Shown here piece by piece: positions 7,944 through 29,030 of a DNA stretch of 64,000 nt. The stretch lies in the NCBI GenBank assembly GCA_001443005.1, contig LEKQ01000001.1, positions 1 through 64,000 of the forward strand, given 5' to 3'. The notes under the pieces are model-generated. The model saw nothing but the letters and a program-made list of their open reading frames with translations. It was not told the origin of the DNA and made no database searches. Numbering within the stretch: position 1 is the stretch's first letter; each line of letters opens with the position of its first letter. This DNA is from a bacterium GBS-1 (GTDB lineage Bacteria; Synergistota; GBS-1). The translations under genes and the position numbers were made by a program.

Positions 7944-7973
7944 CGGGGGCTTGATATCAAGCCCCCGGCTTTT
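7944..7973 (+). terminator. Intrinsic terminator after the FBP aldolase/phosphatase gene
   Basis: The near-perfect palindrome CGGGGGCTTGATATCAAGCC and onwards (7944-7967) forms a 10-bp GC-rich stem with an ATAT loop, followed by GCTTTT. On the minus strand no T-run follows the stem, so it mainly serves the plus-strand gene. Its end overlaps the stop codon of the convergent DUF4097 gene. Confidence 0.85.
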
Positions 7974-9207
7974 ATTTCTTTCTTATATTGATATCTCCTT
8001 CGGAAGTGGTTAACTTTACTAAGGCCTTATATTGATTTAGAACGCCTGTAAGCTCATCTCTGCTGCTTTGGGTAACTATGAGGGGTAGTTCGCAGGTGAT
8101 AATACCCTTTATGGTCTTGGCCACTATCGCTGTAGAGGCATCTGTGGGAATTTTAACGTTTATGGTGCCCTCTGAGGTTTCAACTATATACCTGCCGTTT
8201 TCCTTAATCACCGTATCAAGGTTTATATCTCCTGTATTAGATGAAAGCTCTATGCGGTAAGAATGCTTGTTTCCCAAGGTTAAAGAGCCCTGCTTGAAAT
8301 GTACAGTAATGTTCCCTTCTATATCATCAAGGAGCATATCTCCTTCTTCGACGACTATGTTAAGGTTTTTCTCTATATGTTCCCCTATTATTCTGGTTTT
8401 AGTAGCTTTGACTTCCGCGTTTCCCTTAACGTCAAAAATGGATATACTGCCCTTGCCAACGCTGACGGTTACGTTCTGCTTTGAATGAAACACCTTAATG
8501 TTTCCTTCGGAGCTCTCTACATCTACATTGCCGTTTATGTTCTCTGCATGTATCTCCCCCTTCTCAGTTATTATGGTTACGTTTCCTCCAATGTTACTAA
8601 TGAGTACGCTTCCAGAGGAAGTTTGAGCGTGAACGTTTCCCATGACATTTCTTATAAAGACGTTCCCTGAGGATGTTTTTACCTTTAGGTTTTTATTTAG
8701 ATCACTTATGAAGACATCACTTTCTTCCGCTTCTATAGCTATATTTAAGCTCCTTGGTATGAAGATTTTGTAGCTGACATAGCCTCTTTTCCCGTTAGCT
8801 TGCGGGAGGAAAGTTTCCAAAGATATGTTCTCATCTCTTTGTATTATCCTGATCTCAATATCTTTGGATAACTCTTGAGCTTCTTTTTTGTTCCTTCCCC
8901 AGGTATGCTTTACCGCTGTTACCTTTAAAAGCATTTGATCCCAAGATTTGACCACTATATCTCCAGCCTTATTGGTACAGGAAAGTAAAGCGTTTTCTGA
9001 AACAAGCAGCAGCTTCTCAAAAGGTTCAGTATGTTCTATAAGAGCTTCACTCTTCACCACACTTTCAGTTACCATGAGCATTCCTCCCTTGGGGGTAATT
9101 TCTTCTTCCTTCAAAGATCTATATGTAAGGTCACCCTTAAGTGGGGTAACCGTTTCTGGGGTTTTTGGTTTGAAGAACTTAAATATCTCACCTATAAGTA
9201 TGGCCAT
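7972..9207 (-). CDS. DUF4097-family beta-roll protein (second of pair)
   Basis: The protein has 411 residues from the ATG at 9207, which has GAGGAGG about 9 bases upstream and is preferred over an upstream in-frame start at 9252. From about residue 100 it is a chain of short beta-rungs with recurring 'SS-G-N/S-V' turns (KTSSGNVFI, QTSSGSVLI, SSEGNIKVF, TSEGTINV), as in the DUF4097 (YvlB/LiaG-like) putative adhesin domain. There is no signal peptide or membrane segment, so it is probably cytoplasmic or exported by an unknown route. It overlaps the preceding gene by 20 bases, so the two are translationally coupled paralogues. Function unknown. Confidence 0.8.
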   Translation of the reverse strand: MAILIGEIFKFFKPKTPETVTPLKGDLTYRSLKEEEITPKGGMLMVTESVVKSEALIEHTEPFEKLLLVSENALLSCTNKAGDIVVKSWDQMLLKVTAVKHTWGRNKKEAQELSKDIEIRIIQRDENISLETFLPQANGKRGYVSYKIFIPRSLNIAIEAEESDVFISDLNKNLKVKTSSGNVFIRNVMGNVHAQTSSGSVLISNIGGNVTIITEKGEIHAENINGNVDVESSEGNIKVFHSKQNVTVSVGKGSISIFDVKGNAEVKATKTRIIGEHIEKNLNIVVEEGDMLLDDIEGNITVHFKQGSLTLGNKHSYRIELSSNTGDINLDTVIKENGRYIVETSEGTINVKIPTDASTAIVAKTIKGIITCELPLIVTQSSRDELTGVLNQYKALVKLTTSEGDINIRKK

Positions 9208-10135
9208 CTTCTTTTTCCTCCTCAAGCTTATGGAGAACATAAATATTACCACTTGATGTCTTTAAGGCTAAGGAACTTTCGCCCGATCCTAAGCGCATTT
9301 CATTTCCTTCTAGGGTAAAGGGAGGTTCACTAAGAATTTTACCACATTTTGTTTCCAATCTTACATGGCAGGAGGAGTGAAAAGGAAGCTTAAGCTTTAT
9401 GTACCCTGAATAGCTTTCGAGATCATACGCTCCTTCCTTTATTGGATTGATATCGGCTTTTATGTTTCCGCTCGAAGTTTTAACGCTAAGCAGGAGCGCT
9501 TCTATTCCTTTTAATGTTATGTTGCCGCTTTTATTTCTAACATATATGGCTCCAAGGCATTCTTCTAAAAAAATGTCTCCGCTTTCGTTTTTTACGTTCA
9601 TCTCTCCAGAAAAGCCCTTTATAGTTATTCTACCGCTTGAGCTCTCCACCGATATTTTCCCCTCGGAGTTTTTAATCTCTATATCAGCTGGACCAGATAG
9701 GATGCTTAAGCTTCCCTTCACATTTTGTATCTTCGTAAGGAGCTTATCTTTGTAAGACAAGTTTATATAACCTTCTTTTCTGCTTCCATTAAGCTTTTGT
9801 AGACCAGTGTCTATCTCTAAGTTAATATAGGGTGGAGCAAAAACGTCAAGGTCTACACCTATCTTCACGTCTGGTGTTAATATAAACAGAGGTACGCTAA
9901 CCTCTAAGCTTAGCCCTTTTTCTGATTCCTTTTCTTTTAACTCAATATGCTTAAGTCTTTTCTCAGCTTCCTGTTCAGAGAAATCTCCTGTAAGATGTTT
10001 AGTTATCGTGAGTTTTAATCTATGGGAGTTCCATGTTTTAAGTTTCGTATTTCCATATAGGTTTCTTATAAAGATCCTTTTCTCTTCACCTATAACTATC
10101 TCTTTTTCTTCAACTTGGGCAAAGGATCCCTTCAT
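9188..10135 (-). CDS. DUF4097-family beta-roll protein (first of pair)
   Basis: This 315-residue protein has an N-terminal region of about 110 residues with little similarity to known domains, then a repeated beta-rung region (about 120-305). That region is rich in 'SSGRITI', 'ESGDIFL', 'KSGNITL' and 'TSSGNIK' turns typical of DUF4097 domains. No signal peptide or transmembrane helix is present. The ATG has AAGGAGAG upstream. It is the first gene of a two-gene minus-strand unit and is divergent from a small coiled-coil protein across a 57-base gap that holds a palindrome (10155-10168). DUF4097 proteins elsewhere are linked to envelope-stress loci, but nothing here proves that role. Confidence 0.8.
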   Translation of the reverse strand: MKGSFAQVEEKEIVIGEEKRIFIRNLYGNTKLKTWNSHRLKLTITKHLTGDFSEQEAEKRLKHIELKEKESEKGLSLEVSVPLFILTPDVKIGVDLDVFAPPYINLEIDTGLQKLNGSRKEGYINLSYKDKLLTKIQNVKGSLSILSGPADIEIKNSEGKISVESSSGRITIKGFSGEMNVKNESGDIFLEECLGAIYVRNKSGNITLKGIEALLLSVKTSSGNIKADINPIKEGAYDLESYSGYIKLKLPFHSSCHVRLETKCGKILSEPPFTLEGNEMRLGSGESSLALKTSSGNIYVLHKLEEEKEDGHTYR

Positions 10136-15265: not shown

Positions 15266-16012
15266 ATGAGCATAATTATCTTCCTTTTAGGTTCTGTGGT
15301 AGGAAGTTTCTTAAACTCTTGCATATATCGGTTGCCTCGGGGGGTGTCGATAGTGCACCCCCCTTCTTTTTGCCCTTCCTGTAAGCATAGGCTTCATTGG
15401 TATGACCTTATCCCCATACTAAGCTATATATTATTAAGGGGAAAATGTAGATACTGTGGAGTTAAAATTTCCTATAGTTATCTATTAGTTGAGATCCTTA
15501 CAGCTTTCTTGTTTCTGTTATCTTATTACCATTTTGGATTGACATTAGAATTTATCTTTTCTTGCTTCTTCCTTTCTTTGTTAGAGTTTATAGCTATGGT
15601 TGATTTAAGGACCTTTGAAGTTATGGACTTCGCTGTTTACATCGGCATTATTATTGGGGTAATCTTCTATTTCGTGAAGTTTGATTTTGAGGGGTTTATC
15701 TTCTCAATCAAGGGAATAATATATGGCGCAGGTATAATGGCTTTGATATTCTATGTTTCAAATGGAAAGATGGGAGAGGGAGATATAGGCATAGCTGCGC
15801 TTATAGGAGCTTGGCTTGGGGACATTAATACTATAGTTGCTATCTTTTTGGCTTTCTTAATCGGAGGGACTATAGGAGCTTTTTTGATTATTCTTAAGCT
15901 CAAAAAACTGGGAGATAAACTGCCCTTTGGTCCCTTTTTAGCAATTGGGGGAGGTATAACTTTTCTTAAGGGCAATTTTTTGATAGAATTGTATTGGAGG
16001 TTTTTAGGGTGA
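15266..16012 (+). CDS. pilD: Type IV prepilin peptidase/methyltransferase
   Basis: This integral membrane aspartic protease cleaves type IV prepilin leaders and N-methylates the new end. Its 248 residues include the N-terminal methyltransferase-linked zinc motif (C36, C39, C61, C64 in CPSC and CRYC) and the two catalytic aspartates, Asp113 (MVDLRT) and Asp173 in GEGD. About seven or eight hydrophobic segments are visible. It opens the pilus operon, and its stop overlaps the first minor pilin start (GTGA). Confidence 0.94.
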   Translation: MSIIIFLLGSVVGSFLNSCIYRLPRGVSIVHPPSFCPSCKHRLHWYDLIPILSYILLRGKCRYCGVKISYSYLLVEILTAFLFLLSYYHFGLTLEFIFSCFFLSLLEFIAMVDLRTFEVMDFAVYIGIIIGVIFYFVKFDFEGFIFSIKGIIYGAGIMALIFYVSNGKMGEGDIGIAALIGAWLGDINTIVAIFLAFLIGGTIGAFLIILKLKKLGDKLPFGPFLAIGGGITFLKGNFLIELYWRFLG

Positions 16013-16431
16013 GGAGAGGGCTCAGTTTATTAGAGTTGCTTATAACTGTAGTCCTTGTCGGAGTTGGAGTTTTCGCTCTATACTCTCTCTTCTACAGCAT
16101 TGAATTTAAAGGGGAAAGGATGAAATCTCGCTTTGTTATGCTTAAGTTGGCCGAAGGCAAGCTTGAGGAGTTACAATATGGTATTTCTGATAGCGATCTT
16201 CCCTCTTCCCTTCCAACACAGGTTGTGTTTTCTGGTCTTGAGTTCAACTTAGCGAGACTTCCGTCTTACTTGTTCCCGTCCCTTCATGAAAGCTCCTACA
16301 ATGGCGTTTCCTATTCCTGTGCTGTTGACCTTTCATCTCCCTCAACAGGAGTTGTGATGATAAGGGTTAGGGTGTGGGAAAGCGCTCGCCCTAACAGGTT
16401 TGTTGAGCTCGTTGGAGCGAGATTAAGGTGA
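16009..16431 (+). CDS. Minor type IV pilin / pseudopilin (PilV/GspI-like)
   Basis: With the GTG at 16009 (GTGA overlap with pilD, TTGGAGG 9 bases upstream) the protein has 140 residues. It begins MRRGLSLLELLITVVL, a short type III-type leader whose cleavage would fall between Gly4 and Leu5 and which keeps Glu at position 5 of the mature pilin. One N-terminal hydrophobic helix is followed by a small globular domain with LKLAEGKLEELQYG. The size and order before a GspJ-like protein suggest a PilV/GspI role in the tip-initiating minor pilin complex; this is inferred. Confidence 0.82.
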   Translation: MRRGLSLLELLITVVLVGVGVFALYSLFYSIEFKGERMKSRFVMLKLAEGKLEELQYGISDSDLPSSLPTQVVFSGLEFNLARLPSYLFPSLHESSYNGVSYSCAVDLSSPSTGVVMIRVRVWESARPNRFVELVGARLR

Positions 16432-17036
16432 AGATCAGAAGGGGGTTAACCTTAGTTGAAGCCTTAGTTACCATAGCTATATTTGCCGTGGTTATCTTAG
16501 TGCTTATGGAGATCCTCTTTGGTGGATTAAGGCTTTATAGACATGGGGTTTCTCGGGAGGACCTCGTTCAAAACGCTCGAGTCATCCTTGAGAGAATAAG
16601 GTCGGAGATGATTCCCGGAGGGAAGAGATTGCTATCTTCGACACACCCTTTGTTGATATCCGATGAAGAGCACAATGTACTACAGGTTCTGCGTGACAAT
16701 GACAGTGTTTACTTCGGATGCTATAGGGGAAGAAGTCTCCCTAGTGGTGAGGATGTGTATATCCTGGGAAGGGCTACGGATACGGGAAGCGTTCAGCCCC
16801 TAACCGATGGGTATGATGGAGGAAAGGACCCGTATTGGGTGAGCGTGGAGATGTTTAAGGTGGTTCTGCTTACGGCAGGTAACTCCTTCATGTATGGGCT
16901 TACGCCTGGGTCAGTCGCTTCGAATAAGGGGGTTTACATCTACCTTAAGCTTGCTGGTCCTGGTGGCGTTGAAAGCAAAAGATTCAGCAAGAGCAAGTTT
17001 TTTGAGGTTTCGACGATAATATATCTAAGAGAATGA
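16428..17036 (+). CDS. Minor type IV pilin / pseudopilin (PilW/GspJ-like)
   Basis: This 202-residue pilin-like protein begins MKIRRGLTLVEALVTIAIF, giving a Gly-Leu cleavage site and the conserved mature Glu5. The region after the membrane helix, RVILERIRSEM, resembles PilW and GspJ. The GTG start overlaps the preceding stop (GTGA), and its own stop overlaps the next ATG. It sits between a GspI-like pilin and a GspK/PilX-like protein, the usual I-J-K order of the tip complex. Confidence 0.82.
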   Translation: MKIRRGLTLVEALVTIAIFAVVILVLMEILFGGLRLYRHGVSREDLVQNARVILERIRSEMIPGGKRLLSSTHPLLISDEEHNVLQVLRDNDSVYFGCYRGRSLPSGEDVYILGRATDTGSVQPLTDGYDGGKDPYWVSVEMFKVVLLTAGNSFMYGLTPGSVASNKGVYIYLKLAGPGGVESKRFSKSKFFEVSTIIYLRE

Positions 17037-20000
17037 AAAAAGGGGTTTCCATTCTAGGTTTTACTTTATTAATAATGTTGGTTTTGGGTGTAATAGGGGG
17101 AGGCTTTGCCTTCCTTTATAATACGCAGGAGGTTATCTCGCGCTCTGAGCTTAGAGGGGCTCAGAGCTTCTTTGCGGCGGAAGCTGCTATTAAGAAGTCC
17201 CTTGCAAAGTATAGAGAAGATAACCCTTCCATCTCTCTTTCCAGCCCGGTTTGGTATTATGGAAGAGATGCCTTATCTTTGTCTCTCCCGTGGACAAACT
17301 CTTCCTATTTGCCTGATCATGATCTTGCATCCGAAGGCGCCATAACCTTTAGAGCCGAAAGGTTCAAACTCTATGATGGAGTTAACGAGGTTTACTTTTA
17401 CGCTGAAGGGGTTTTAAGAGAGGGGGGAAAGGACGCTTCTCGCTTCCCCATAGCCTTAAGGATGAATAAGTCATTTGCCCAGGAGGGCATAGAGTTGGAA
17501 TTGGGTTTAGGTGTTGGAGAGGTGTTGATAAAGAGGGGAGGAGTGATATGGAAAAGATTGAGTAATGAGGGTTATCGTGGGGGGCAAGCGTTAAAAAGAG
17601 CATTTACCCTTGTCGGCGGAGGGCATGATTATGAGATAGTTCTCGGGCCGGGAGTTTACATGATTCCCATGAGAAGAGCAGGTGATTATTGCTTCGGGCT
17701 TGAGTTAGAGGGAAACAAGACCGTGGTTTTAAGGTCGGCTAGGGGACTTGGGCCTCATTGGGTTAAAGTAGTAGGTATTTTACCCTATAAATCAGCAGGG
17801 CAGCCTTATATGGCAAAGTATTGGACGACGATCTTGTTAAGAAACGGAGCTAATTTAACTATAGAGGATCTATGGATTTCGCCACCTATTGAGAGAGGCC
17901 ATCTTGAGGGTGAGGTTCAAAGTGATAGAGATTTCTCAGCTATCCTCTTAGACGATGTTAATACGAGCTTAACCTTGGTTAATTCTATCTTGAAAAACAG
18001 GGACTTAGTTAGGTATCTTGGCTCCTCTATTTCCGGAGTTAGGGTGCTTTTGAAAGGAAGAGGCGTTTCCGACTTAAGCGTTAGGAATTGCATATTAGAT
18101 GGCGGAAGTTTTCTTAACTATGAGACTGGTTCAAGGAGTTATGGGATTTGGGCCTCCAAACTTTCAAATAAAAGCTTTACCCTTAATGCAATTGTGGAGA
18201 GAAGCGTCATCATTAGACATGATGTAGGCCTGTCTAACGAGATCCCGGGAAGCGCTTTGGTTGCTCGGGAATCTCTGTTTTTTGGTAATGCCACAAATTC
18301 TATCGGAAACGTTAGTCAAGTCAATATACTTCAGGAGAATCCAAGGTTTAAGACCTTTTACAGTTTCCTAAAAGGAGAAGATGATCTTATAGAGTGGTTT
18401 AGGCACTGGGATGCTTACGTTCCGGATGAGGGTTCCATACTTGAGGAAATGGGGATAGGGCTGACGTCGCTTTATTGGAAGAGGACGGTTCCCGTTCCTA
18501 AGGGGGGTGAAATAGTTTTACTTTTAGAGAGAGGAAACAGCAGATATTCCATATCCTATTTTTATGATGTTGATTCGGCCTTCAATGTTCTTAAGGATTA
18601 TTACCTTCTTAACCCTAACGGTTCTTCGATGCTTCTTTTTGGAAGAGGGCTTTGGTATATCAAGAATCAACACGATTTGACCGGAATCAAGAAATTTCAT
18701 ATGGTTTCTGCATGGGGGCCTTTGTTCACACCGATATTTGTCTTTTTACCATCTGTCTGGGATTCCTCCTCAAGCACAAGGGCTGTCCTGAACTTCATGA
18801 ACTGTGATGAAGTGAAGATAAATGGTTTCTACTTTGCCTTAAGCGGTGGAAAAGCTACTGATGGTGGAAAAACTTTTATTCACTTTTATAGATCTAATTC
18901 CATCGAGGTAACCGATTGTGTGTTTAAGAGAGCTTACGGTGGAAGAGGATATTTAGTTGAAATTAAGCTTGAAGATTGTTCTGATGTAAACATCTACAAC
19001 AACGTTTTCGACCACAAATATAGGAAAGTAGTGGCTGATTCATCAGGGGTTCCAATTTTATACGAAAGCGAGATTGTATTAACTACGGGGATCCAAGGGA
19101 TAATGGGGAATTTCAAAGTAAGTGGAAACCTGTTTTGGGGAGAAAGCCCGCAGGGCGGTTTCAATGAGGAAGTCAGGCCTCAAGATGAGGTTAACTTCAT
19201 TCAAGATGGGGACAGCAGGGTCATAAACTCTCCATTCAACCCTCTTTCTTACAGACTGGTGCTTTCTAATACTAACAGGTTTCTCGAGGAAAATTTTGAT
19301 GGTGGAGATATAGGATTGAGGTTTGATCTTTATCCCTATGTTAGATCTTTTGAGGGAAGGACTCTTTCTTTCGTTAGGCTTGAAAACCCAATAGAGGAAA
19401 CGGAAGTAAGCAATTTGAAGTTAATTGTTGAGAAGTTGGAAGAGGGCGAAACTTTAATTCTAGGTAAAGGAAGCTACAGCATGAATGATCAAACTTCTGT
19501 TGCTCAGAATGGAGTAGCTCTACTTGGAATGTGGGGACCCTATTATACTAAGATTAAAGCTTCTTCATCTTTGAACTTTTTGGGAAGGGGAACCCTTCTT
19601 TATGGGCTGGGGTTTGAACTATACGGCAATTTAAGTGGAGGTGCTTTTCTTTCTCTCGAAGGTGAAAACTCCGTCATTAAGGATATATCTGTAACTGTGA
19701 AAGAGATTTCTAAGTTTTACAAATATGGCATTAAAGCCAGTTTTGCTAATGGTTTGCTTAAAAACATCTACGTTAACGGGGGCTTGCTTGAAAACGGTAT
19801 ATGGATGGCTAAATGCGATTATGGCATTTACATTGCAGGGGAGAATGTCCTTATCGATCATGTTAACAGCCTTAAACACAAGATTACAGGCGTAAAATGG
19901 AGTCAGTGGATTTATGGCTGTAACTCTTACTCCTATGAGGGAGGAGAAATACCGCCAGGTTATAGAGCTTACGATCCAAATAACGTGGATATTACTAACC

Positions 20001-20155
20001 TCAGCGTTCACCCTGAAGGGGGGAATGACTCTAGATATAACTGGCTTTGCTTTTCCTACTTTTCACCTTGCTATTGGTGGAATAACCCTGGTGAAGCTAA
20101 TACGGGCTCTTATAGGGGTGTTGATTGGGCTAACTTTCCTATAAAGCCCAGATAG
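17033..20155 (+). CDS. Giant pilin-like protein with triplicated beta-helix region (PilX/GspK-type N terminus)
   Basis: The 1040-residue protein begins MKKGVSILGFTLLIMLVLGV, a prepilin-type leader and membrane helix, followed by AQSFFAAEAAIKKSLAKY as in PilX_N/GspK proteins. Position 5 of the mature form is Gly rather than Glu, a trait of GspK-type tip subunits. The rest looks like right-handed parallel beta-helix. I see three related blocks, each with a 'G.G.(Y/W)' turn and then a 'GP' motif about 25-35 residues later: G205-Y209/GPHW240-243, G537-Y542/WGP561-563 and G811-Y815/WGP834-836. Two cysteines sit in the aromatic C-terminal 40 residues. It probably caps the pilus and contacts a surface or polymer; the ligand is unknown. 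It overlaps the GspJ-like gene by 4 bases. Confidence 0.8.
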   Translation: MKKGVSILGFTLLIMLVLGVIGGGFAFLYNTQEVISRSELRGAQSFFAAEAAIKKSLAKYREDNPSISLSSPVWYYGRDALSLSLPWTNSSYLPDHDLASEGAITFRAERFKLYDGVNEVYFYAEGVLREGGKDASRFPIALRMNKSFAQEGIELELGLGVGEVLIKRGGVIWKRLSNEGYRGGQALKRAFTLVGGGHDYEIVLGPGVYMIPMRRAGDYCFGLELEGNKTVVLRSARGLGPHWVKVVGILPYKSAGQPYMAKYWTTILLRNGANLTIEDLWISPPIERGHLEGEVQSDRDFSAILLDDVNTSLTLVNSILKNRDLVRYLGSSISGVRVLLKGRGVSDLSVRNCILDGGSFLNYETGSRSYGIWASKLSNKSFTLNAIVERSVIIRHDVGLSNEIPGSALVARESLFFGNATNSIGNVSQVNILQENPRFKTFYSFLKGEDDLIEWFRHWDAYVPDEGSILEEMGIGLTSLYWKRTVPVPKGGEIVLLLERGNSRYSISYFYDVDSAFNVLKDYYLLNPNGSSMLLFGRGLWYIKNQHDLTGIKKFHMVSAWGPLFTPIFVFLPSVWDSSSSTRAVLNFMNCDEVKINGFYFALSGGKATDGGKTFIHFYRSNSIEVTDCVFKRAYGGRGYLVEIKLEDCSDVNIYNNVFDHKYRKVVADSSGVPILYESEIVLTTGIQGIMGNFKVSGNLFWGESPQGGFNEEVRPQDEVNFIQDGDSRVINSPFNPLSYRLVLSNTNRFLEENFDGGDIGLRFDLYPYVRSFEGRTLSFVRLENPIEETEVSNLKLIVEKLEEGETLILGKGSYSMNDQTSVAQNGVALLGMWGPYYTKIKASSSLNFLGRGTLLYGLGFELYGNLSGGAFLSLEGENSVIKDISVTVKEISKFYKYGIKASFANGLLKNIYVNGGLLENGIWMAKCDYGIYIAGENVLIDHVNSLKHKITGVKWSQWIYGCNSYSYEGGEIPPGYRAYDPNNVDITNLSVHPEGGNDSRYNWLCFSYFSPCYWWNNPGEANTGSYRGVDWANFPIKPR

Positions 20156-20176
20156 AACTTGAGGAGTGAGGTAAAG

Positions 20177-20461
20177 ATGGTTCCAGATGAAAGGATGCCT
20201 AGAAATTATATGGAGAAGCTGGTCAGGGAAACCTTGATGAGGTTACTAAAGGATAAGGAGGGTATTTGCAAGTGTGAAAAGTGTATATCTGATATGATGG
20301 CTTACGCTTTGAACAGGCTTCCTCCAAGGTATGTGACTACGGACAGGGGGTACATCTTTTCTAAGTTAAGGGAGATAGAGGTCCAAACTCAGGTTGATGT
20401 TTTGGAAGCTGTTCTTGAAGCTATTGATGTAGTTTCCAAAAACCCTAAGCACTCTTGTTAA
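20177..20461 (+). CDS. ComFB-family protein
   Basis: The protein has 94 residues from the ATG at 20177, which has GAGGAG and GTGAGG just upstream; an in-frame TTG at 20159 is less likely. The pattern is that of the late-competence ComFB family: NYMEKLVRETL, then CKCEKCISDMMAYALNRLPP with Cys31, Cys33 and Cys36, then RYVTTDRGYI. Some ComFB-family proteins have been reported as c-di-GMP receptors controlling motility. Its place between the tip pilin and pilM suggests control of the pilus, which is inferred. Confidence 0.85.
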   Translation: MVPDERMPRNYMEKLVRETLMRLLKDKEGICKCEKCISDMMAYALNRLPPRYVTTDRGYIFSKLREIEVQTQVDVLEAVLEAIDVVSKNPKHSC

Positions 20462-20473
20462 GGAATAGAGGTC

Positions 20474-21478
20474 ATGGGCAAAGGTGGTTCTTGGATCGGT
20501 ATCGATATTGGAACCATGGGAATAAAGTTCGCCAAGCTCAGTGGGTATAAACTTGAGGATTGGGGAAGTGTTCCACTTCCTCAGGGGAGTATAGCTGCTG
20601 GGGTTATAAAGGATTTTGCTGCGGTTTCAAAAGCCATAAGTGAACTGTTTAATAAGCGCGGTATCAAGAGGAGAAGAGTGGTAAGTTGCGTTGGAGGGCG
20701 AGAAACCGTTATAAGAACGATGACCCTCCCCAGGTTAGAGAAAAAGGAGTTTGAGAAGTTCTTAGTGTGGGAGATAGAAAGGTTTCTTCCTTTTCCAGTG
20801 GAAGACGCAGTCTATAACTATCAAATATTGCGTAGTTTTAGAGACGGAGAGGGAGAAAAACTGGAGGTGATGGTGGTTGTTACGCGAAAGTCGCTTTCAA
20901 GAGCTATATATGAAGCCTTTAAGGGAGCCGAAATTGAATTAGAGGCTATCGAAGCCTTACCTTTTCCTCTTTTGAGGAGTGCAGAACTTTCTAGAATTAA
21001 GGATGGATTCATGATTATCGACATGGGAGCTGGAACCACGGATATGGCTGTTGTTCGAGAGAATAATATAGTGCTATTTAGGTCTATTCCTATAGGGGGA
21101 AACTCCTTTACGTCAGCCATATCTGCTTCGGCTAAACTTGATTTCTCTACAGCTGAGAAGCTTAAAGTGGATAGCTCCTTTGCAGAAATTAGGGAATATG
21201 TGAGTGATGTTTTAAGCAACCTTACAGATGAGGTAAGGAGATGTTTCGATTACGTTATAGGCCAATTTAAGGAAAACATAGTTAGCGTGATTTATCTAAC
21301 AGGAGGAGGATGTGCTTTCAAAGGTTTTGATGTATTTCTCGAAGGCATGTTTGGTATCTCCACAAGAAGGCTTGATCCTTTGAAAGGACTTCAACTTAGA
21401 ACCCCTGTTGGTGAGCTTGACGAACTTAAGAGTCGTTGGAGTTTAGCCATCGGTCTTGCCCTTAGAGGTGTTCACTGA
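20474..21478 (+). CDS. pilM: Type IV pilus assembly protein PilM
   Basis: PilM is the cytoplasmic actin-like component that binds the PilN tail and links the inner-membrane platform to the motors. The 334 residues carry the actin-fold motifs WIGIDIGTMGIKFAKL, FMIIDMGAGTTDMAVV and IYLTGGGCAFKG. The typical PilM segment KKEFEKFLVWEIERFLPFP is present. The ATG is preceded by GAGGT and pilN follows after 2 bases. Confidence 0.93.
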   Translation: MGKGGSWIGIDIGTMGIKFAKLSGYKLEDWGSVPLPQGSIAAGVIKDFAAVSKAISELFNKRGIKRRRVVSCVGGRETVIRTMTLPRLEKKEFEKFLVWEIERFLPFPVEDAVYNYQILRSFRDGEGEKLEVMVVVTRKSLSRAIYEAFKGAEIELEAIEALPFPLLRSAELSRIKDGFMIIDMGAGTTDMAVVRENNIVLFRSIPIGGNSFTSAISASAKLDFSTAEKLKVDSSFAEIREYVSDVLSNLTDEVRRCFDYVIGQFKENIVSVIYLTGGGCAFKGFDVFLEGMFGISTRRLDPLKGLQLRTPVGELDELKSRWSLAIGLALRGVH

Positions 21479-21480
21479 TA

Positions 21481-22026
21481 ATGGAGATTACGAATTTTAG
21501 GGTTAATCTGTTGCCACCAGAGGTAATTAAGCTCAGAAAGAGGAGGCTATTATTCACTGCTATGCGGATAACTTTACTCCTTTTATGGATAGTGACTCTC
21601 TTTTACACTGGCTGGATTTATTACCACTATAGGTCTCTTAGTGAGGCGGTTTCTGAAAAAGAGAAAGTCCTTGATGCTTTAACTAAGCAGCTACAGAAAG
21701 AGGACCTCCTTAAGCTTTTTAAGGAAGCAGAAGCGTTCGTGAACGACTTAAGGAGCTTTACTTCTGATCTTATACCGGTCTATGAATTTTTACTTCATCT
21801 TTCTTCTAGCTTGCCTGAGGGGATAAAATTGAATAAACTAGAAACCCTGAAAGGTAGAGAGCTAAGAATATCAGGATTGGCTGACTCGCCTGAGGCGATG
21901 GCAGAGCTTTTAAAGGTGCTTAAGGACGCGGATTTTGTGGAGGATATATCTTTGCCAGGGATTGAAGGGGAGTTGGAGAGGGGAATACCTTTCAATTTCA
22001 CTTGCCGGCTTAAAGGTTGGTGGTGA
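21481..22026 (+). CDS. pilN: Type IV pilus assembly protein PilN
   Basis: This 181-residue bitopic inner-membrane protein has the cytoplasmic motif FRVNLLPPEVIKLRKRR (about 5-21) that binds PilM. A membrane helix follows (about 26-47), then a periplasmic coiled coil and a small ferredoxin-like domain. The order pilM-N-O is standard, and PilN pairs with PilO. The gene ends 5 bases before the pilO start. Confidence 0.9.
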   Translation: MEITNFRVNLLPPEVIKLRKRRLLFTAMRITLLLLWIVTLFYTGWIYYHYRSLSEAVSEKEKVLDALTKQLQKEDLLKLFKEAEAFVNDLRSFTSDLIPVYEFLLHLSSSLPEGIKLNKLETLKGRELRISGLADSPEAMAELLKVLKDADFVEDISLPGIEGELERGIPFNFTCRLKGWW

Positions 22027-22030
22027 AGTT

Positions 22031-22567
22031 TTGGTTGAAGTCTGGAGAGATCTGCTAAGTAAGTTTAGGAGCAGAGATTTTATATTGATCTGGGGTATAG
22101 GTGTTATAGCGTTAGTTGTTTTTTTCTTTATTTTAACGCTGAGACTTAGTGATGCTTTAGAGAACATGAGAGCCAAGGATCAAAAGCTTTCCTCGGAGAT
22201 AAGAAGATTAGAAGCACAGATAATCAAGGCTAAAGAAGTAAAAGAGAAACTGGAAATCTTGCTTAATCTTGTTGAAAGATACAGGGCTTTCTTGCCTAAG
22301 GCAGAAGACGCTAACAATGTGGCTATCCTCTTGGGTAGTTCAGCGAGAAACAGCGGTTTTGAGCTGGAAAGGTTAGTATTTAGGAGGGAAAATAGGGTAA
22401 TGATATTTAACTTGAGACTCAAAGGGAGCTTTTCATCACTAATTGACTTCTTGGACAAGATTTGGGGTTCTACCTTTTTGATAGGTGTTAGAGATATTAA
22501 GGTTACTGCTTCAAATGAAGCGCCTATACTGAATGTGGAGCTAGAGCTAAGGTCTTTGGAGAGGTAG
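22031..22567 (+). CDS. pilO: Type IV pilus assembly protein PilO
   Basis: The protein is about 178 residues long. The likely start is the TTG at 22031, with GGTGGTGA over the pilN stop; an open frame extends upstream inside pilN but has no family likeness. A short cytoplasmic tail, one membrane helix (IWGIGVIALVVFFFILTL), a coiled coil (about 40-80) and a periplasmic domain fit PilO, the partner of PilN in the alignment complex. Confidence 0.85.
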   Translation: MVEVWRDLLSKFRSRDFILIWGIGVIALVVFFFILTLRLSDALENMRAKDQKLSSEIRRLEAQIIKAKEVKEKLEILLNLVERYRAFLPKAEDANNVAILLGSSARNSGFELERLVFRRENRVMIFNLRLKGSFSSLIDFLDKIWGSTFLIGVRDIKVTASNEAPILNVELELRSLER

Positions 22568-22573
22568 ATAACC

Positions 22574-23101
22574 TTGAGAAGGGGCTTTCTAGTAGCTTTG
22601 GTTTTGGTGCTTGGGTTTGGGGTACCTTATCTTTACTATAGTGGTTTATTCGATAGATTTGTGTTTGAAATGCCTTCCATTGAAAGTCGCAATGATTCCA
22701 AAAACTTTCCCAAGCTTTCTTTACAAGATATAGATAGGGTTTTAGACATCCTTCAAGACTTTCCTAAAAGTGAGCGTTACCTTAAGCACCTTGAGTCTAA
22801 AGTGCATGACCTAAAGGATCCCTTTTTTTTACCGTATGAACCTCCTATTAGAAAGCTTGAAGTTGACGTTGCTCCGGCGCGGAGCGCAGTTATGGAGGTT
22901 CCTCCTCCAATGAAGCTTGAGGGAATAGTTGATGTTGGAACCAAGAAACTAGCAATATTAATGATCGGTGATGAAAAGGGGATAATTCTTTCTCAAGGGG
23001 AGAGCTGGAAGGAGATCAGGGTTATAAAGATCGAGAAAGGAAGTGTAGTCTTAAGCTGGAAAAATCAGATGAAGTTTTTGCGTCTTTCAGAGGAAAGGTA
23101 A
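22574..23101 (+). CDS. pilP: PilP-like pilus lipoprotein-equivalent (no lipobox)
   Basis: The 175-residue protein has a short cytoplasmic tail, an N-terminal signal-anchor helix (FLVALVLVLGFGVPYLYY), a long linker, and a C-terminal beta domain (about 110-172). That domain follows the PilP/GspC HR pattern: MKLEGIVDVGTKKLAILMIG, GIILSQGESWKEIRVI, GSVVLSW. PilP joins the PilNO complex to the PilQ secretin. No lipobox cysteine is seen, so it is anchored by its helix, as GspC is. The start is TTG with GGAGAGGT upstream. The assignment rests on operon order plus this domain. Confidence 0.75.
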   Translation: MRRGFLVALVLVLGFGVPYLYYSGLFDRFVFEMPSIESRNDSKNFPKLSLQDIDRVLDILQDFPKSERYLKHLESKVHDLKDPFFLPYEPPIRKLEVDVAPARSAVMEVPPPMKLEGIVDVGTKKLAILMIGDEKGIILSQGESWKEIRVIKIEKGSVVLSWKNQMKFLRLSEER

Positions 23102-23123
23102 AAAAAACGAGGTGAAAAGGGGT

Positions 23124-25073
23124 ATGAAGAAGACATATATTGTTTTGGCTTTATTGCTGAGCTTATGTTTTATAGATAAGTCTTTTGCGCTTGACAAAAG
23201 TATAGAAAAGGTTGAGGTCTATCCCTCTAAGAAAGTGGTAAAGCTCATTATAAAGCTTAGCTACCCTTTCAAACCGAGGATAAGCTGGCTTCCCGGAGAT
23301 AGGGAAAGGATGATAATATCCTTTGATGGCTTTATTTATAGAGCCACTCTTAGGAAGCTGTCTATCAGGAGAGAGGATGTATGGGAAGTGAGAGGAGGGC
23401 AGTATACTAAAGGTGAGGCCAGAGTAGTGGTTGAGTTTTTCTCAGAAAGGCTTCAGTATGAAAGTGCAGAGAGAGACGGTGGCAAAACGATCGTGTTTTA
23501 CTTTTATCCTGTACCTCCCAGAGGGAGAGAACCGGTGGTTTCAGAACGCAGGCTATTCTATATAGAGGATATAGATGCAAGTTTGACGAAGGATGTTTTA
23601 AGAGTTGTAATAAGCGGGGGTCCCCCTTTAGATCCCAAGGTGAATTGGGTTAAGGGAGACAAGGGACCTGACAGCCTGATTTTAGATTTCCATGGATTTG
23701 CCCTAAGGAAGCAGGGGATAAGCAAGGATATTAACACTTTTGGGGTTTTATCCCTTCGTGCTTTTCAGTTTACACCAGAAATAGTGAGGCTTGTGGTTAA
23801 CCTGGAGGGGGATAGGGTGAACTATAAGCTTGAGCGAGACCCATCAGGGAGACAAGTTTTGCTTTACTTCTTCCCCAAGCACAAGGAGAAGGTGCCACCT
23901 TTACGTAAGCCTGAGAAAGTTGAACCAATCGCCCCTCAAAATTGGGCCTCTAAAAAAGTTAGTCTAGAGTTTAGAGATACTGACATAAGGGATGTCTTTA
24001 GGGCTCTTGCAAAGGCCGTAGACTTAAACATTGTTCTTGACCAAAGCGTTTCTGGAACTGTAACGGTGGGTTTTAGGGATGTCCCATTCGCTCAGGCTTT
24101 TGATTGGTTACTTAAGATATCAAATCTAAGCTATAGAAATCTCGGAGATACAATCATTATAGGAAAGGAAGATAGACTTAAAGAGCTTTTCGATAAAAAG
24201 GAAACCAAGGTTTTCGTACTGTCCAATGCTTTGGCTTCTAACGTTGTTAAAGCAGTTTCAGATATCACAGGGATGGATAGTATTATAGTTGACCCGAGGA
24301 TGAACGCTCTGATTGTTAAAGCCTCACCATCTGATCTTAAGAGGGTAGAGGAGGTAATTAAGCTTTTGGATCAGGAGGTTCCTCAAGTTATGGTTGAAGC
24401 TAAGCTAGTTGGGATCACTCTGGAAAGAGGGAAAAGTTTGGGATTTATACTTTCTAACATATCCAAGGGAAAGTTCTATAACATAAACATAACTCCTGGC
24501 TCTGAAATAACTATAAGCTATAGCAGCGATGAGAAGGCGTCAGCTGCTTTTGATGCTACCATAAACGCGTGGGTTTCCTCTGGTAGAGCAAGGGTCTTAG
24601 CAAGCCCGAGCGTAGCTACCTTGAGCGGTATGAAGGCGGTTGTTAACTTGACTCGAGATTACAAATATTATAGTAGAGTAGAAGAGATCTCTGATAGTGA
24701 GAAAACCATAACCCAGAAGTGGGAGACCATAACTTATGGGCCTCAACTTGTTATAACTCCCTATGTAGGTGAAGAGGATAAGATAACTCTTGATATAGAT
24801 ATAGATGTCAGTATAGTTACAAGATGGATAGAGTATAGGGATCAGAGAGTTCCGGAGATCGGCCATAGAAAGGTTACGACTAAATTAAGGGTTAAGGATG
24901 GTCAGCCCATAATTATTGGTGGATTGATAACAGAGGAGGATGTCAAAAACCTGCTTAAGGTTCCTCTTTTAGGTGATATTCCGTTCTTAGGGACTCTTTT
25001 TAGGAGCGAGACATCCTCCCGTACGCGGGAAGAAGTTGTTCTTATAGTTACTCCAAGGATATTAAAGGATTAG
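23124..25073 (+). CDS. pilQ: Type IV pilus secretin PilQ
   Basis: The outer-membrane secretin forms the pore for the pilus fibre. From the ATG at 23124 (GAGGTGA 8 bases upstream; a GTG at 23112 is possible) it has a signal peptide MKKTYIVLALLLSLCFIDKS with cleavage probably after SFA. Two AMIN-type peptidoglycan-binding domains follow (about 25-125 and 145-255), then secretin N domains (about 270-420, VSLEFRDTDIRDVFRALAKA) and the secretin core (about 450-649). The core contains VLASPSVATLSGMKAVVN and, near the end, IIIGGLITEEDVKN and VPLLGDIPFLGTLF. Its presence is strong evidence for an outer membrane. Confidence 0.95.
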   Translation: MKKTYIVLALLLSLCFIDKSFALDKSIEKVEVYPSKKVVKLIIKLSYPFKPRISWLPGDRERMIISFDGFIYRATLRKLSIRREDVWEVRGGQYTKGEARVVVEFFSERLQYESAERDGGKTIVFYFYPVPPRGREPVVSERRLFYIEDIDASLTKDVLRVVISGGPPLDPKVNWVKGDKGPDSLILDFHGFALRKQGISKDINTFGVLSLRAFQFTPEIVRLVVNLEGDRVNYKLERDPSGRQVLLYFFPKHKEKVPPLRKPEKVEPIAPQNWASKKVSLEFRDTDIRDVFRALAKAVDLNIVLDQSVSGTVTVGFRDVPFAQAFDWLLKISNLSYRNLGDTIIIGKEDRLKELFDKKETKVFVLSNALASNVVKAVSDITGMDSIIVDPRMNALIVKASPSDLKRVEEVIKLLDQEVPQVMVEAKLVGITLERGKSLGFILSNISKGKFYNINITPGSEITISYSSDEKASAAFDATINAWVSSGRARVLASPSVATLSGMKAVVNLTRDYKYYSRVEEISDSEKTITQKWETITYGPQLVITPYVGEEDKITLDIDIDVSIVTRWIEYRDQRVPEIGHRKVTTKLRVKDGQPIIIGGLITEEDVKNLLKVPLLGDIPFLGTLFRSETSSRTREEVVLIVTPRILKD

Positions 25074-25083
25074 GTGATAATAA

Positions 25084-26739
25084 ATGGAAAGGAAAAAGTT
25101 GGGGGAGCTTCTTTTGGAAGCTGGAGCTATAAAGAGTGCTGATCTTGAAAGAGCTCTTGAGGAGCAAAGGGTTACAGGTGAGCGTTTGGGAAGTATCCTT
25201 GTGAAAAAAGGTATCTTAAGTGAGAGGGAGATAGCATCAGCAATCGCAAAACAGCTTAAAATTCCAATGATATCGCTTAGGAAAGCTAAAATAGATCCTA
25301 AAGTTTTAAGCTTGGTTCCAGAAAGCCTCGCCAGAAGACATCTTCTTATCCCTATAGAGTTGAAGAACGGGAAGCTGGTAGTAGCAATGTCTGATCCTCT
25401 AAATGTTCCTGTTCAAGATGAGCTAAGGCTTTTAACAGGGTATGATGTAGAGGTAGTGGTTGCTCCAAGTAGCGAGATCAAACAGGCTATAGAGGATCAC
25501 TACAGTATGAGAGGAAAGGTTGAAGCCTTAATTCGTGAACGTGAAGTAGTTAAGGAGGAAGTTACCCCAGTAGAGGTAGCTGAAGAGGATATAGCGCCCA
25601 TAGTTCAGGTTGTTAATGGTGTTATATCCCAAGCTATAAGGGAAAGGGCGAGTGATATTCATATAGAGCCTAAAGAGGAAGAGGTACTTATAAGGTTTAG
25701 AGTAGATGGTGTTTTAAGGCCGGTAACGACTCTTCCCAAGAGCGTCCACTCTATTATCTCTACCAGGATAAAAGTCATGGCTGGTATGAACATAGCTGAG
25801 AGGAGACTTCCCCAAGATGGAAGGATCCTGGTTTCAAGCGACGGTAGAGAAGTGGACTTGAGAGTTTCAACTTTACCGACCATCTTTGGGGAGAAGATAG
25901 TTATGAGGATACTTGATAAGGCGGGTATCTTAATAGGTCTTGAGAGTTTGGGTCTTTTGAGTGATTCCCTTGAAAGAGTAGAAAAATTAATATTAAAGCC
26001 CTATGGTATGATACTTGTAACAGGCCCTACTGGTAGCGGTAAGACCACAACACTTTATTCCATATTGAAAAGGTTAAACTCAATTGATAAAAACATCATT
26101 ACAATAGAAGACCCTGTTGAGTATCAGCTTGAGGGGATCAACCAAGTGCAGGTTAATGAGAAAATAGGTTTAACCTTTTCCAGTGCCCTTAGGTCTATAT
26201 TAAGGCAGGACCCCGATATAATAATGGTTGGGGAGATAAGAGATGTGGAAACAGCTGAGATAGCGATAAGATCTGCATTGACAGGCCATCTGGTCCTTTC
26301 TACCCTTCATACTAATGATGCTCCAAGTGCTATAACGAGGCTTATAGATATGGGGGTAGAACCTTACCTTGTTGCATCCTCAGTTATAGGGGTTTTAGCT
26401 CAGCGACTCATAAGAAAGGTTTGTGAGCATTGTAAGGAACCAAAATTGATTGAAGAGAAGAGCATATGGATTGCAGAGGGATTCGACGCAGGCACAACAT
26501 ATTACATTGGTAAGGGGTGCGATGAGTGTGGTGATACAGGATATAAAGGAAGAACTGGGCTCTTTGAGGTCATGATTATGAGTGAGGAGATACAGCGCCT
26601 TACGGTTGAGCGATTCCCCACTTCTAAGATAAGAGAACAGGCGATCAGGGAAGGCATGATCACGCTAAGAGAAGATGGCATACGGAAGGTTAAGATGGGT
26701 ATAACTACGCCTGAAGAGGTAATAAGGGTGACGTTCTAA
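25084..26739 (+). CDS. pilB: Type IV pilus extension ATPase PilB
   Basis: This 551-residue hexameric motor drives pilus assembly. An N-terminal MshEN-type domain (about 1-150; family members bind c-di-GMP) begins KKLGELLLEAGAI and contains VPESLARRHLLIPI. The ATPase core has Walker A GPTGSGKTTTLYS (Gly314-Thr321), an Asp-box IITIEDPVEYQ, Walker B IIMVGEIRDVETAE and a His-box HTNDAPSAITRL. Zinc cysteines are C447, C450, C479 and C482. The stop overlaps the pilT start (TAATG). Confidence 0.96.
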   Translation: MERKKLGELLLEAGAIKSADLERALEEQRVTGERLGSILVKKGILSEREIASAIAKQLKIPMISLRKAKIDPKVLSLVPESLARRHLLIPIELKNGKLVVAMSDPLNVPVQDELRLLTGYDVEVVVAPSSEIKQAIEDHYSMRGKVEALIREREVVKEEVTPVEVAEEDIAPIVQVVNGVISQAIRERASDIHIEPKEEEVLIRFRVDGVLRPVTTLPKSVHSIISTRIKVMAGMNIAERRLPQDGRILVSSDGREVDLRVSTLPTIFGEKIVMRILDKAGILIGLESLGLLSDSLERVEKLILKPYGMILVTGPTGSGKTTTLYSILKRLNSIDKNIITIEDPVEYQLEGINQVQVNEKIGLTFSSALRSILRQDPDIIMVGEIRDVETAEIAIRSALTGHLVLSTLHTNDAPSAITRLIDMGVEPYLVASSVIGVLAQRLIRKVCEHCKEPKLIEEKSIWIAEGFDAGTTYYIGKGCDECGDTGYKGRTGLFEVMIMSEEIQRLTVERFPTSKIREQAIREGMITLREDGIRKVKMGITTPEEVIRVTF

Positions 26740-27797
26740 TGGGTAGACTAACGGAACTGATGCTTAAGATGATCGATCTTGATGCTTCTGATCTTCACCT
26801 AGCTGTTGGCACGGAGCCGACCTTTAGAATAGATGGAAGGCTTCAGCGAGCTTCAGGATGGTCACCGCTTAGAGGTGAGGAGATAAGTTCTATTTTAAGT
26901 GAAATATTAGATCCTAATCATAAGAGAGTTTTTGAGGAGAGGAGAGAATGTGATTTTGCCTTTGAGATTGAAGGAAAAGCAAGATATCGTGTGAATCTCT
27001 TCTATCATCAAGGCTCTCCTGGAGCCTCTATAAGGCTTATACCTAATAGGATAAGGAGCATAGAAGAGCTAGGGCTCCCACTCGTATTAAAGGACTTAGC
27101 TATGAAGTTAAGGGGATTAATTTTGGTTACTGGTCCTACAGGGAGCGGAAAGAACACAACGTTGGCCGCTATGGTTGATTACATAAACGAGAACGCTTCC
27201 CGCAAGATAATTACGATCGAAGATCCTATAGAGTATGTTCATAAGCATAAGAAGAGTCTTATAGTTCAAAGAGAGGTTGGAGTAGATACTCACGACTTTG
27301 CTTCAGGGGTGAAATATGCGTTAAGACAGGACCCAGATGTGATTCTTATAGGTGAGATGAGAGATTTGGAGACCATCTCCGCTGCTATTACGGCTGCGGA
27401 AACAGGACACCTTGTTATGACAACCTTACACACTCCAGATGCTCCGCAAACGATAGATAGAATCATAGATGTTTTCCCACCTCATCAGCAAAATCAGATC
27501 AGGGTTCAACTTTCCAACGTAATTCAAGGAGTTATATCTCAACAGCTACTTCCCAAAAAGGATAAGGGTAGGGTTGTGGCTGTGGAGCTTATGGTAGCTA
27601 CTCCTGCGATTAGAAACCTTATAAGAGAAGGAAAAACTGCTCAAATATACTCGGTGATTCAAACAGGCGCAAAACTGGGAATGCAGACAATGGATCAAGC
27701 TATAGCTAAGCTTTATAAGAAGGGGCTCATAAGTAAGGAAGTGGCTATGGAGTTTGCTCACAATCCTGACATTCTTGAGAAGCTTCTTATTGCTTGA
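26739..27797 (+). CDS. pilT: Type IV pilus retraction ATPase PilT, with altered Walker A
   Basis: PilT powers pilus retraction and twitching. The 352 residues include the PAS-like N domain (LHLAVGTEPTFRIDG), Asp-box IITIEDPIEY, Walker B ILIGEMRDLET, His-box HTPDAPQTIDRIID and the PilT-specific C-terminal LIREGKTAQI. The Walker A reads GPTGSGKNTTLAA: Asn139 (AAC, 27153-27155) replaces the Ser/Thr that normally coordinates Mg and ATP phosphate. Everything else looks intact, so the gene is not decayed, but the effect on ATPase activity is uncertain. It overlaps pilB by one base. Confidence 0.94.
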   Translation: MGRLTELMLKMIDLDASDLHLAVGTEPTFRIDGRLQRASGWSPLRGEEISSILSEILDPNHKRVFEERRECDFAFEIEGKARYRVNLFYHQGSPGASIRLIPNRIRSIEELGLPLVLKDLAMKLRGLILVTGPTGSGKNTTLAAMVDYINENASRKIITIEDPIEYVHKHKKSLIVQREVGVDTHDFASGVKYALRQDPDVILIGEMRDLETISAAITAAETGHLVMTTLHTPDAPQTIDRIIDVFPPHQQNQIRVQLSNVIQGVISQQLLPKKDKGRVVAVELMVATPAIRNLIREGKTAQIYSVIQTGAKLGMQTMDQAIAKLYKKGLISKEVAMEFAHNPDILEKLLIA

Positions 27798-27809
27798 GGG
27801 AGGTCATAA

Positions 27810-29030
27810 ATGCCCCTCTACTTTTATAGAGCTCGAGCCTCTAATGGAACTATAGTTGAGGGAAGATTAGAGGCCGGAAGCGAAAGGATCTTATTTTCTA
27901 AGCTGAGAGAAGAAGGATTGTTCCCAATAGATATAAGGGAGGAGAAAAGCCAAACTCGGGGAGCCCCAAAGGATACCAGTTTTTTCTTAAGGCGCGTATC
28001 CTTGCGCGATCTTGCGCTCTTCAGTAGACAGTTTTCCACCATGATTAAGGCTGGCATAAACATAGTAGCAGCGTTGGATGTGCTCATTCAGCAGGTATAT
28101 AATCGTAGGCTTAAACTAACTCTCGTAATGGTTAAGAAAGATGTGGAGGAGGGAACTACCCTAGCAGAAGCGCTGTCTAAGCATCGAGATATATTTGATG
28201 ACCTTTACACTAGCTTGGTAAAGGCGGGAGAGGCAAGCGGTGCTTTGGACGAGGTTTTAGAAAGAATAGCTTTTCACCTAGAACGGGAAAACTCCCTTAT
28301 TCAGCGTGTCAAAACTGCAATGCGTTACCCCATCTTTGTCTTATCAATGGCTATCGGTGTCATTATTCTTTTACTTACATTTATTGTTCCAAGGTTTATA
28401 ATGATCCTTGAGGGAATCGGTGTTCCTCTTCCAACTCCAACTTTACTTTTAATATACATAGTTAGTTGGATCGAGAATAACTACTATCAACTTTTGATTA
28501 TTCCACTTTTAGTTTGGTTGTCTTTAAAACTTTTAAGGAGATCTGAGAATGCATCCTATTTGATGGACAAGATTAAGCTTAGACTTCCGATCGTAGGTCA
28601 TATATTATACAGAGTCGCTATAGTTAGGGTTTCTAGAACTCTGGCAACCCTAAGCTCTGCTGCTGTTCCCGTGCTTGATTCCTTAGAGATGGTTTCCAAT
28701 GTGGCTGGGAACAAGGTCATAGGTAGGGCACTTAAGCTCGCGAAAAACGGAGTTCAGGAAGGACGAAGCTTAGCGGAGTCGATTTTAGTGAGTGGTGTTT
28801 TTCCCCCCATGGTGACCCAGATGATAGCTGTTGGTGAGGAAACCGGAAAAATAGATGAGATGCTCCACAAGGTAGCAGACTTCTTTGATGAGGAGGTAGA
28901 CAATGCTATCAAGGGCTTGTCTTCTATGATAGAGCCCGTTTTAGTTTTGTTTTTGGGTGGAATAGTAGGTTTTATAGCGATTTCAGTTTTCTTACCATTG
29001 TTTCAGCTCATAGGGGGGTTAGCTAAATGA
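27810..29030 (+). CDS. pilC: Type IV pilus inner-membrane platform protein PilC
   Basis: PilC is the polytopic platform on which PilB and PilT act. The 406 residues contain two GspF domains (about 65-190 and 270-390), with typical LALFSRQFSTMIKAGI and VARTLAT-like segments (VSRTLATLSSAAVPVLDSL). Three membrane helices lie near 175-197, 215-240 and 375-400. The ATG follows GAGGGAGGTC. Its stop overlaps the pepQ ATG by 4 bases, so the pilus operon may run into the housekeeping genes. Confidence 0.95.
   Translation: MPLYFYRARASNGTIVEGRLEAGSERILFSKLREEGLFPIDIREEKSQTRGAPKDTSFFLRRVSLRDLALFSRQFSTMIKAGINIVAALDVLIQQVYNRRLKLTLVMVKKDVEEGTTLAEALSKHRDIFDDLYTSLVKAGEASGALDEVLERIAFHLERENSLIQRVKTAMRYPIFVLSMAIGVIILLLTFIVPRFIMILEGIGVPLPTPTLLLIYIVSWIENNYYQLLIIPLLVWLSLKLLRRSENASYLMDKIKLRLPIVGHILYRVAIVRVSRTLATLSSAAVPVLDSLEMVSNVAGNKVIGRALKLAKNGVQEGRSLAESILVSGVFPPMVTQMIAVGEETGKIDEMLHKVADFFDEEVDNAIKGLSSMIEPVLVLFLGGIVGFIAISVFLPLFQLIGGLAK

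Follow-up and report, generated by a model that had tools for sequence, protein, structure and literature searches.

A giant GspK/PilX-slot minor pilin with a putative beta-helix region in a type IV pilus operon of Synergistota

The locus and the pilin module

The window analysed here is a stretch of 64,000 nucleotides from the Synergistota bacterium GBS-1 (assembly GCA_001443005.1, contig LEKQ01000001.1, positions 1 to 64,000 of the forward strand), and it contains a complete type IV pilus operon with a giant minor pilin. The giant is encoded by an intact open reading frame (ORF) at 17033-20155, which starts with ATG and is 1,040 residues long. The order of the operon is prepilin peptidase, two minor pilins, the giant, ComFB and then PilM-N-O-P-Q-B-T-C. 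Since it comes third, after two pilins and within a type IV pilus operon, the giant was assigned to the GspK/PilX position, that is, to the third minor pilin of the I-J-K gene group.

The original prediction gave the protein a prepilin leader and a PilX/GspK-type N terminus; the leader was borne out. The sequence begins MKKG^VSILGFTLLIMLVLG, a class III prepilin leader (MKKG^VSILG) continued by a hydrophobic helix, and the orthologues are alike in this respect. Mature position 5 is Gly, Ala and Ser in the three orthologues (Gly in the window copy), and hence the glutamate of that position (Glu5) is missing, while both pilins encoded upstream have Glu5 and the N_methyl motif. PilX_N (PF14341) was matched by two of the three orthologues, with a best E-value of 8.4e-6; relative to the cut-off of 25.5 bits, the copy of genome G002 scored 31.6 (above), and those of G001 (22.1) and of the window (14.4) fell below. 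As far as low-confidence models allow, the pilin-like segment seems to be finished by about residue 148, and beyond the modules described below no further pilin-like part was recognised. GspK and PilX, which have no Glu5, are placed outermost in the pseudopilus or pilus, at its tip (PMC7541494). It was the gene order, the missing Glu5 and the PilX_N matches of the orthologues that led us to read the giant as a putative tip-type pilin of the GspK/PilX slot, and the weak but concordant matches in three blocks that led us to add a large beta-helix region; at the sequence level this reading is supported.

Among the 41 nearest genomes the giant was found in just two others, G001 and G002, which are well sequenced, belong to the same family (f1) and keep the same gene order. 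In the fourth f1 genome, G003, which is 77% complete, PilQ starts 32 bases from a contig end, so the absence of the giant there is uninformative. The original prediction asked for homologues with the same fusion; these exist, full-length, in the two f1 genomes, and no further full-length match came up when 188 genomes of the phylum were searched by profile. Scans for relatives of the giant, by conserved peptides in 84,980 species genomes and in viral contigs, returned none, with the limitation that near relatives may be left out of both collections. The identity among orthologues is similar along the chain, 53-57% in the pilin part and 45-56% in the modules (45-57% in every module overall). 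This evenness indicates that the whole chain is under selection and that the extension is neither decaying nor free to vary.

Table 1. Features of the giant pilin and of the surrounding operon in the window (module boundaries are approximate)
Feature	Position	Strand	Basis
Giant K-type minor pilin	17033..20155	+	ORF; orthologues 55% and 52% identical over full length
Pilin module, residues 1-150	17033..17482	+	Cleavage of the leader after Gly4; Glu5 absent; a long alpha helix followed by a segment rich in strands
Beta-helix-like module D1, residues 151-483	17483..18481	+	PF13229 Beta_helix E 0.025 in the G001 orthologue segment; rung-like motifs
Start-of-module motif 1, IVLGPGVY, residues 202-209	17636..17659	+	
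Beta-helix-like module D2, residues 484-775	18482..19357	+	PF13229 E 0.0093, NosD E 0.018; low-confidence model of 520-715
Start-of-module motif 2, LLFGRGLW, residues 534-541	18632..18655	+	
Beta-helix-like module D3, residues 776-1040	19358..20152	+	TIGR03805 beta_helix_1 E 0.0054 over segment residues 23-170
Start-of-module motif 3, LILGKGSY, residues 808-815	19454..19477	+	
Prepilin peptidase (A24), opens the minor-pilin group	15266..16012	+	A24_N_bact E 7.9e-36, Peptidase_A24 E 6.9e-11
Minor pilin 1 (GspI/PilV position), Glu5 present	15994..16431	+	N_methyl E 1.2e-4; leader RRG^LSLLE
Minor pilin 2 (GspJ/PilW position), Glu5 present	16428..17036	+	N_methyl E 9.6e-6; 27% identity to equivalent pilin of sister family (G005)
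ComFB, cyclic dinucleotide receptor family, between giant pilin and pilM	20159..20461	+	PF10719 E 1.4e-29; 54% identical to same-position ComFB in G005
PilM	20474..21478	+	PilM_2 E 1.3e-39
PilN, PilO-like, PilP-like, PilQ secretin, PilB, PilT, PilC (remaining type IV pilus machine)	21481..29030	+	

In the last of these rows, PilN and the secretin were named by Pfam and PilT by relatives of 49-60% identity; PilO, PilP, PilB and PilC were named from gene order and sequence. The scan for promoters and terminators in the region of the giant gave nothing above chance.

The C-terminal extension

Three motif pairs, each a G-x-G-x-[YW] followed by a G-P, were located at residues 205/240, 537/562 and 811/835. 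They coincide with the blocks of the original prediction, except that the middle one reads G-R-G-L-W and does not end in Y. The pattern hhhG.G.[YW] (h, hydrophobic) occurs exactly three times in each of the three orthologues, at corresponding positions; the mean in shuffled sequences was 0.02-0.03 and three occurrences were reached in none of 5,000 shuffles, figures that are somewhat optimistic because the pattern was widened post hoc by admitting W beside Y and the preceding hydrophobics. Throughout the 20,384 residues of the window ORFs it was found three times, always in the giant. The G-P follows within 45 residues of every motif in G000 and G002, and of two of the three in G001, where the middle block has W-G-A. 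Segments of this type, in which a hydrophobic strand leads into G-x-G-x-Y/W and a second strand ends in G-P, look like the opening turn of right-handed beta-helix proteins.

The family matches of the modules (Table 1) are weak, and for D1 the match comes from the G001 segment, the window copy itself having no match. Chance-level matches to unrelated families were obtained at similar E-values in other segments, and the remaining segments had no match; weak matches to Smg4_UPF3 and Kallistatin were judged to be chance. The persuasive point is that one fold was named three times, once for every separate module. Strand motifs of the type V-x-I-x-N-N-x-F are also enriched in the window protein (14 observed versus 6.3 expected, P 0.002, for a pattern written post hoc). 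The profile search of the PDB with the whole giant and with each module gave no meaningful match. An AlphaFold run was carried out without alignment, on the window's own sequence only. The model of residues 520-715 (block 2) is, at low confidence, all-beta, with strand pairs that repeat about every 30 residues (segment positions 63-84, 94-114 and 122-140). The original prediction had assigned some 960 residues to beta-helix-like repeats; weak fold matches are indeed present in all blocks, although the extension comes to about 890 residues, and a beta-helix fold of residues 151-1040 is likely but unproven. Many Trp and Tyr residues are invariant, which would be compatible with glycan binding, although this is only suggestive.

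An internal triplication had been proposed as well. The start motif does appear three times, but module-versus-module comparison revealed no significant similarity beyond it (hhalign P 0.03-0.45, blastp E > 1). Judged by the refuting condition that the original prediction had set, a lack of self-similarity between the blocks, the triplication has no support in the sequence. A recent triplication was rejected on the profile-profile comparison, and an origin of the blocks by duplication is, as judged from their sequences, unproven. What the three modules share is the start signature and, probably, a fold.

The equivalent slot in related families

In genome G005, of a sister family, the slot between the GspJ-like pilin and ComFB is filled by a protein of 189 residues, which matches the giant in the N-terminal helix alone (34% over 50 residues, E 3e-8). 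The pilin and the ComFB that flank it are homologous to the flanking genes of the giant. A shared slot whose protein bears the extension in f1 but is without it in G005 indicates a graft, and the extension represents a domain beyond the pilin module, present in one family and missing from the slot protein of the other, which is the arrangement of a modular pilin.

Families f5 and f6, also of Synergistota, have a GspJ-like pilin followed by a PilX of 198-208 residues, a PilY1 of 1,057-1,071 residues and PilM. Nine further genomes (G006, G020, G029, G032, G040, G054, G057, G120 and G121) show matches to PilY1 and PilM that are 1.3-1.8 kb apart and share a strand. The PilY1 model (PF05567, a beta-propeller) gave no match in the giant or in the three good f1 genomes. 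A protein search for PilY1 in five genomes, f1 included, found none either, this search having no positive control of its own.

A different protein precedes PilM in G041 (family f9; L052:1564-2946, minus strand). It has 460 residues and is hydrophobic in its N-terminal segment, with neither a Pfam match nor an adjoining PilY1, and it is possibly another independent enlargement of a K-type pilin.

Proposed role and alternatives

Taking into account the gene order, the orthology, the missing Glu5, the three-fold motif and the non-detection of PilY1, we lean towards reading the giant as a tip pilin of modular build, belonging to a type IVa-like pilus, in which the beta-helix array would be the binding head and the roles of PilX and PilY1 would be merged in one chain. 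In type IVa pili the complex of PilY1 and minor pilins primes assembly and forms the adhesive tip (PMC7541494). According to the proposed mechanism, residues 1-150 would constitute a GspK/PilX-type minor pilin, which would cap and prime the fibre jointly with the two minor pilins whose genes lie just upstream; having no Glu5, it would be expected in the outermost position. The remaining 890 residues would fold into three consecutive right-handed beta-helix modules, each opened by the hhhG-x-G-x-[YW] ... G-P segment, and the array would project from the pilus tip as a stiff head. This head may grip a constant extracellular ligand (a surface polymer, a glycan or DNA), and retraction would then draw cell and ligand together. 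One f1 polypeptide would thereby do the jobs that relatives split between PilX, the tip pilin, and PilY1, the tip adhesin. A tentative extension of this scheme, in which we place limited confidence, is that a single pilin of 1,040 residues with three beta-helix modules primes the pilus, as PilX does, and also takes over adhesion and the bearing of force from PilY1; if true, a tip complex of two proteins can be merged into one or give way entirely to a solenoid array.

Several results weigh against the reading as a modular tip pilin with a beta-helix head. All the matches to beta-helix families (Beta_helix, NosD and beta_helix_1) are below the curated cut-offs, with one member matched per module. 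The AlphaFold model of the whole giant had a predicted local distance difference test (pLDDT) score of 30 and is uninformative, just the first helix being partly confident, and the model of block 2, whose repeat was mentioned above, reached 40. Foldseek with this last model found nothing significant, and although most of its 17 non-significant matches in the PDB are beta-solenoids, this was given little weight. In addition, the conservation of the giant is about that of PilM, which is higher than expected for a fast-evolving adhesin. Finally, the PilY1 model gives no score to the 846-residue protein that occupies the PilY1 slot of G022; the model therefore misses divergent members, and the absence of PilY1 from f1 is provisional.

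The PilM-like conservation of the whole chain would suit an extension that acts as a structural plug, capping the secretin and stopping retraction without any ligand, as proposed for the PilY1 complex; the PilY1-minor pilin complex of Myxococcus has been described as a plug and cork (PMC7541494). However, an array of three modules and 890 residues is far larger than a plug needs, and the slot protein of G005 has 189 residues only, so that we consider this role very improbable. The modules could also be a polysaccharide lyase or hydrolase borne on the pilus and displayed at the surface. Right-handed beta-helices with such a start motif are common in carbohydrate-active enzymes, but no carbohydrate-active enzyme family was matched by any segment up to E 10, and no beta-helix enzyme of the PDB was matched; this is the least probable of the alternatives.

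A competence pilus, whose beta-helix array captures extracellular DNA for uptake, seems unlikely to us, but DNA is a serious candidate ligand. It has its precedent in ComZ of Thermus thermophilus, which combines a GspK-like pilin with a large beta-solenoid, as proposed for the giant, and is likewise encoded beside minor pilins; ComZ binds DNA through the solenoid, as a DNA receptor, and was argued from its structure to fit only at the pilus tip (PMC6561018). The ComEC-type Competence family was matched in all five genomes searched, and the neighbouring ComFB is of a cyclic dinucleotide receptor family on which cyanobacteria depend for pilus biogenesis and competence (PMC12313861). On the other hand, ComFB and ComEC-like matches are common in bacteria, and both are present in G005, whose slot protein has no giant head. 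Open frames with the Competence domain (G000:C8:52896-53537 and equivalents) have only about 400 residues in f1 versus 592 in G005. The modules show no consistent positive charge (isoelectric points 4.5-8.6), although ComZ is also devoid of clear positive patches. The architecture differs as well: ComZ has one solenoid of about 380 residues inserted between the last two pilin strands, whereas in the giant three putative modules, of about 890 residues, appear after the pilin module, and the profile search of the PDB with the giant found no pilin chain.

By comparison with other known systems, the reading of the giant as a modular tip pilin has close parallels. The modular type IV pilins, such as PilB and PilC of Streptococcus sanguinis, CofB and TcpB, likewise join a small pilin module to a bulky C-terminal graft, and they are widespread, with 264 architectures in one survey (PMC8179133). 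Their grafts are vWA, lectin or beta-repeat/sandwich domains, and the largest of the proteins named has 860 residues, whereas the graft of the giant is a putative triple beta-helix in the GspK/PilX slot. The PilX-PilY1 tip complex of type IVa pili offers the same operon slot, a tip pilin without Glu5 and a tip head of about 1,000 residues (PMC7541494). PilY1, however, is not part of the pilin chain; it has a signal peptide of its own and the conserved PilY1 domain, and no PilY1 was detected in f1. GspK of type II secretion is also the third minor (pseudo)pilin after I and J, has no Glu5 and is proposed to be outermost. It carries a helical insert and not a beta-helix array, and the operon of the giant, with PilM-N-Q-B-T-C, denotes a pilus system, unlike that of GspK.

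Literature text searches for beta-helix minor pilins gave ComZ as the sole relevant paper in the library searched. The "new kind" of adhesin announced by the original prediction was an overstatement, since ComZ (PMC6561018) and the widespread modular pilins (PMC8179133) precede it and the principle of a large binding module on a tip pilin was already known. New are the C-terminal layout of three putative modules, the size of 1,040 residues, the fixation in one Synergistota family and the apparent replacement of PilX and PilY1. What a type IV pilus grips depends on its tip, and the well-studied type IVa tips need PilY1 and minor pilins; family f1, seemingly without PilY1 and with a putative beta-helix head on the PilX slot, would be a natural test of which tip functions are essential. 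The giant would be, beside ComZ, a second case of solenoid tip heads, and its single chain would make structural work simple.

Some observations concern the neighbourhood. ComFB is kept beside the K-slot pilin in G002 and in G005, and its placement suggests that the pilus of the giant is under cyclic dinucleotide control. Two overlapping DUF4097 (toastrack) genes are located 5 kb upstream of the pilin group on the minus strand (window 7972-10135), and such a pair also adjoins pilins in G005 (L035 5407-7599). A second, distant secretin gene is present in f1 genomes (G001:C2, G002:C2 and G003:C191), with further pilin genes nearby in G002 and G003, and possibly belongs to a separate secretion or pilus system.

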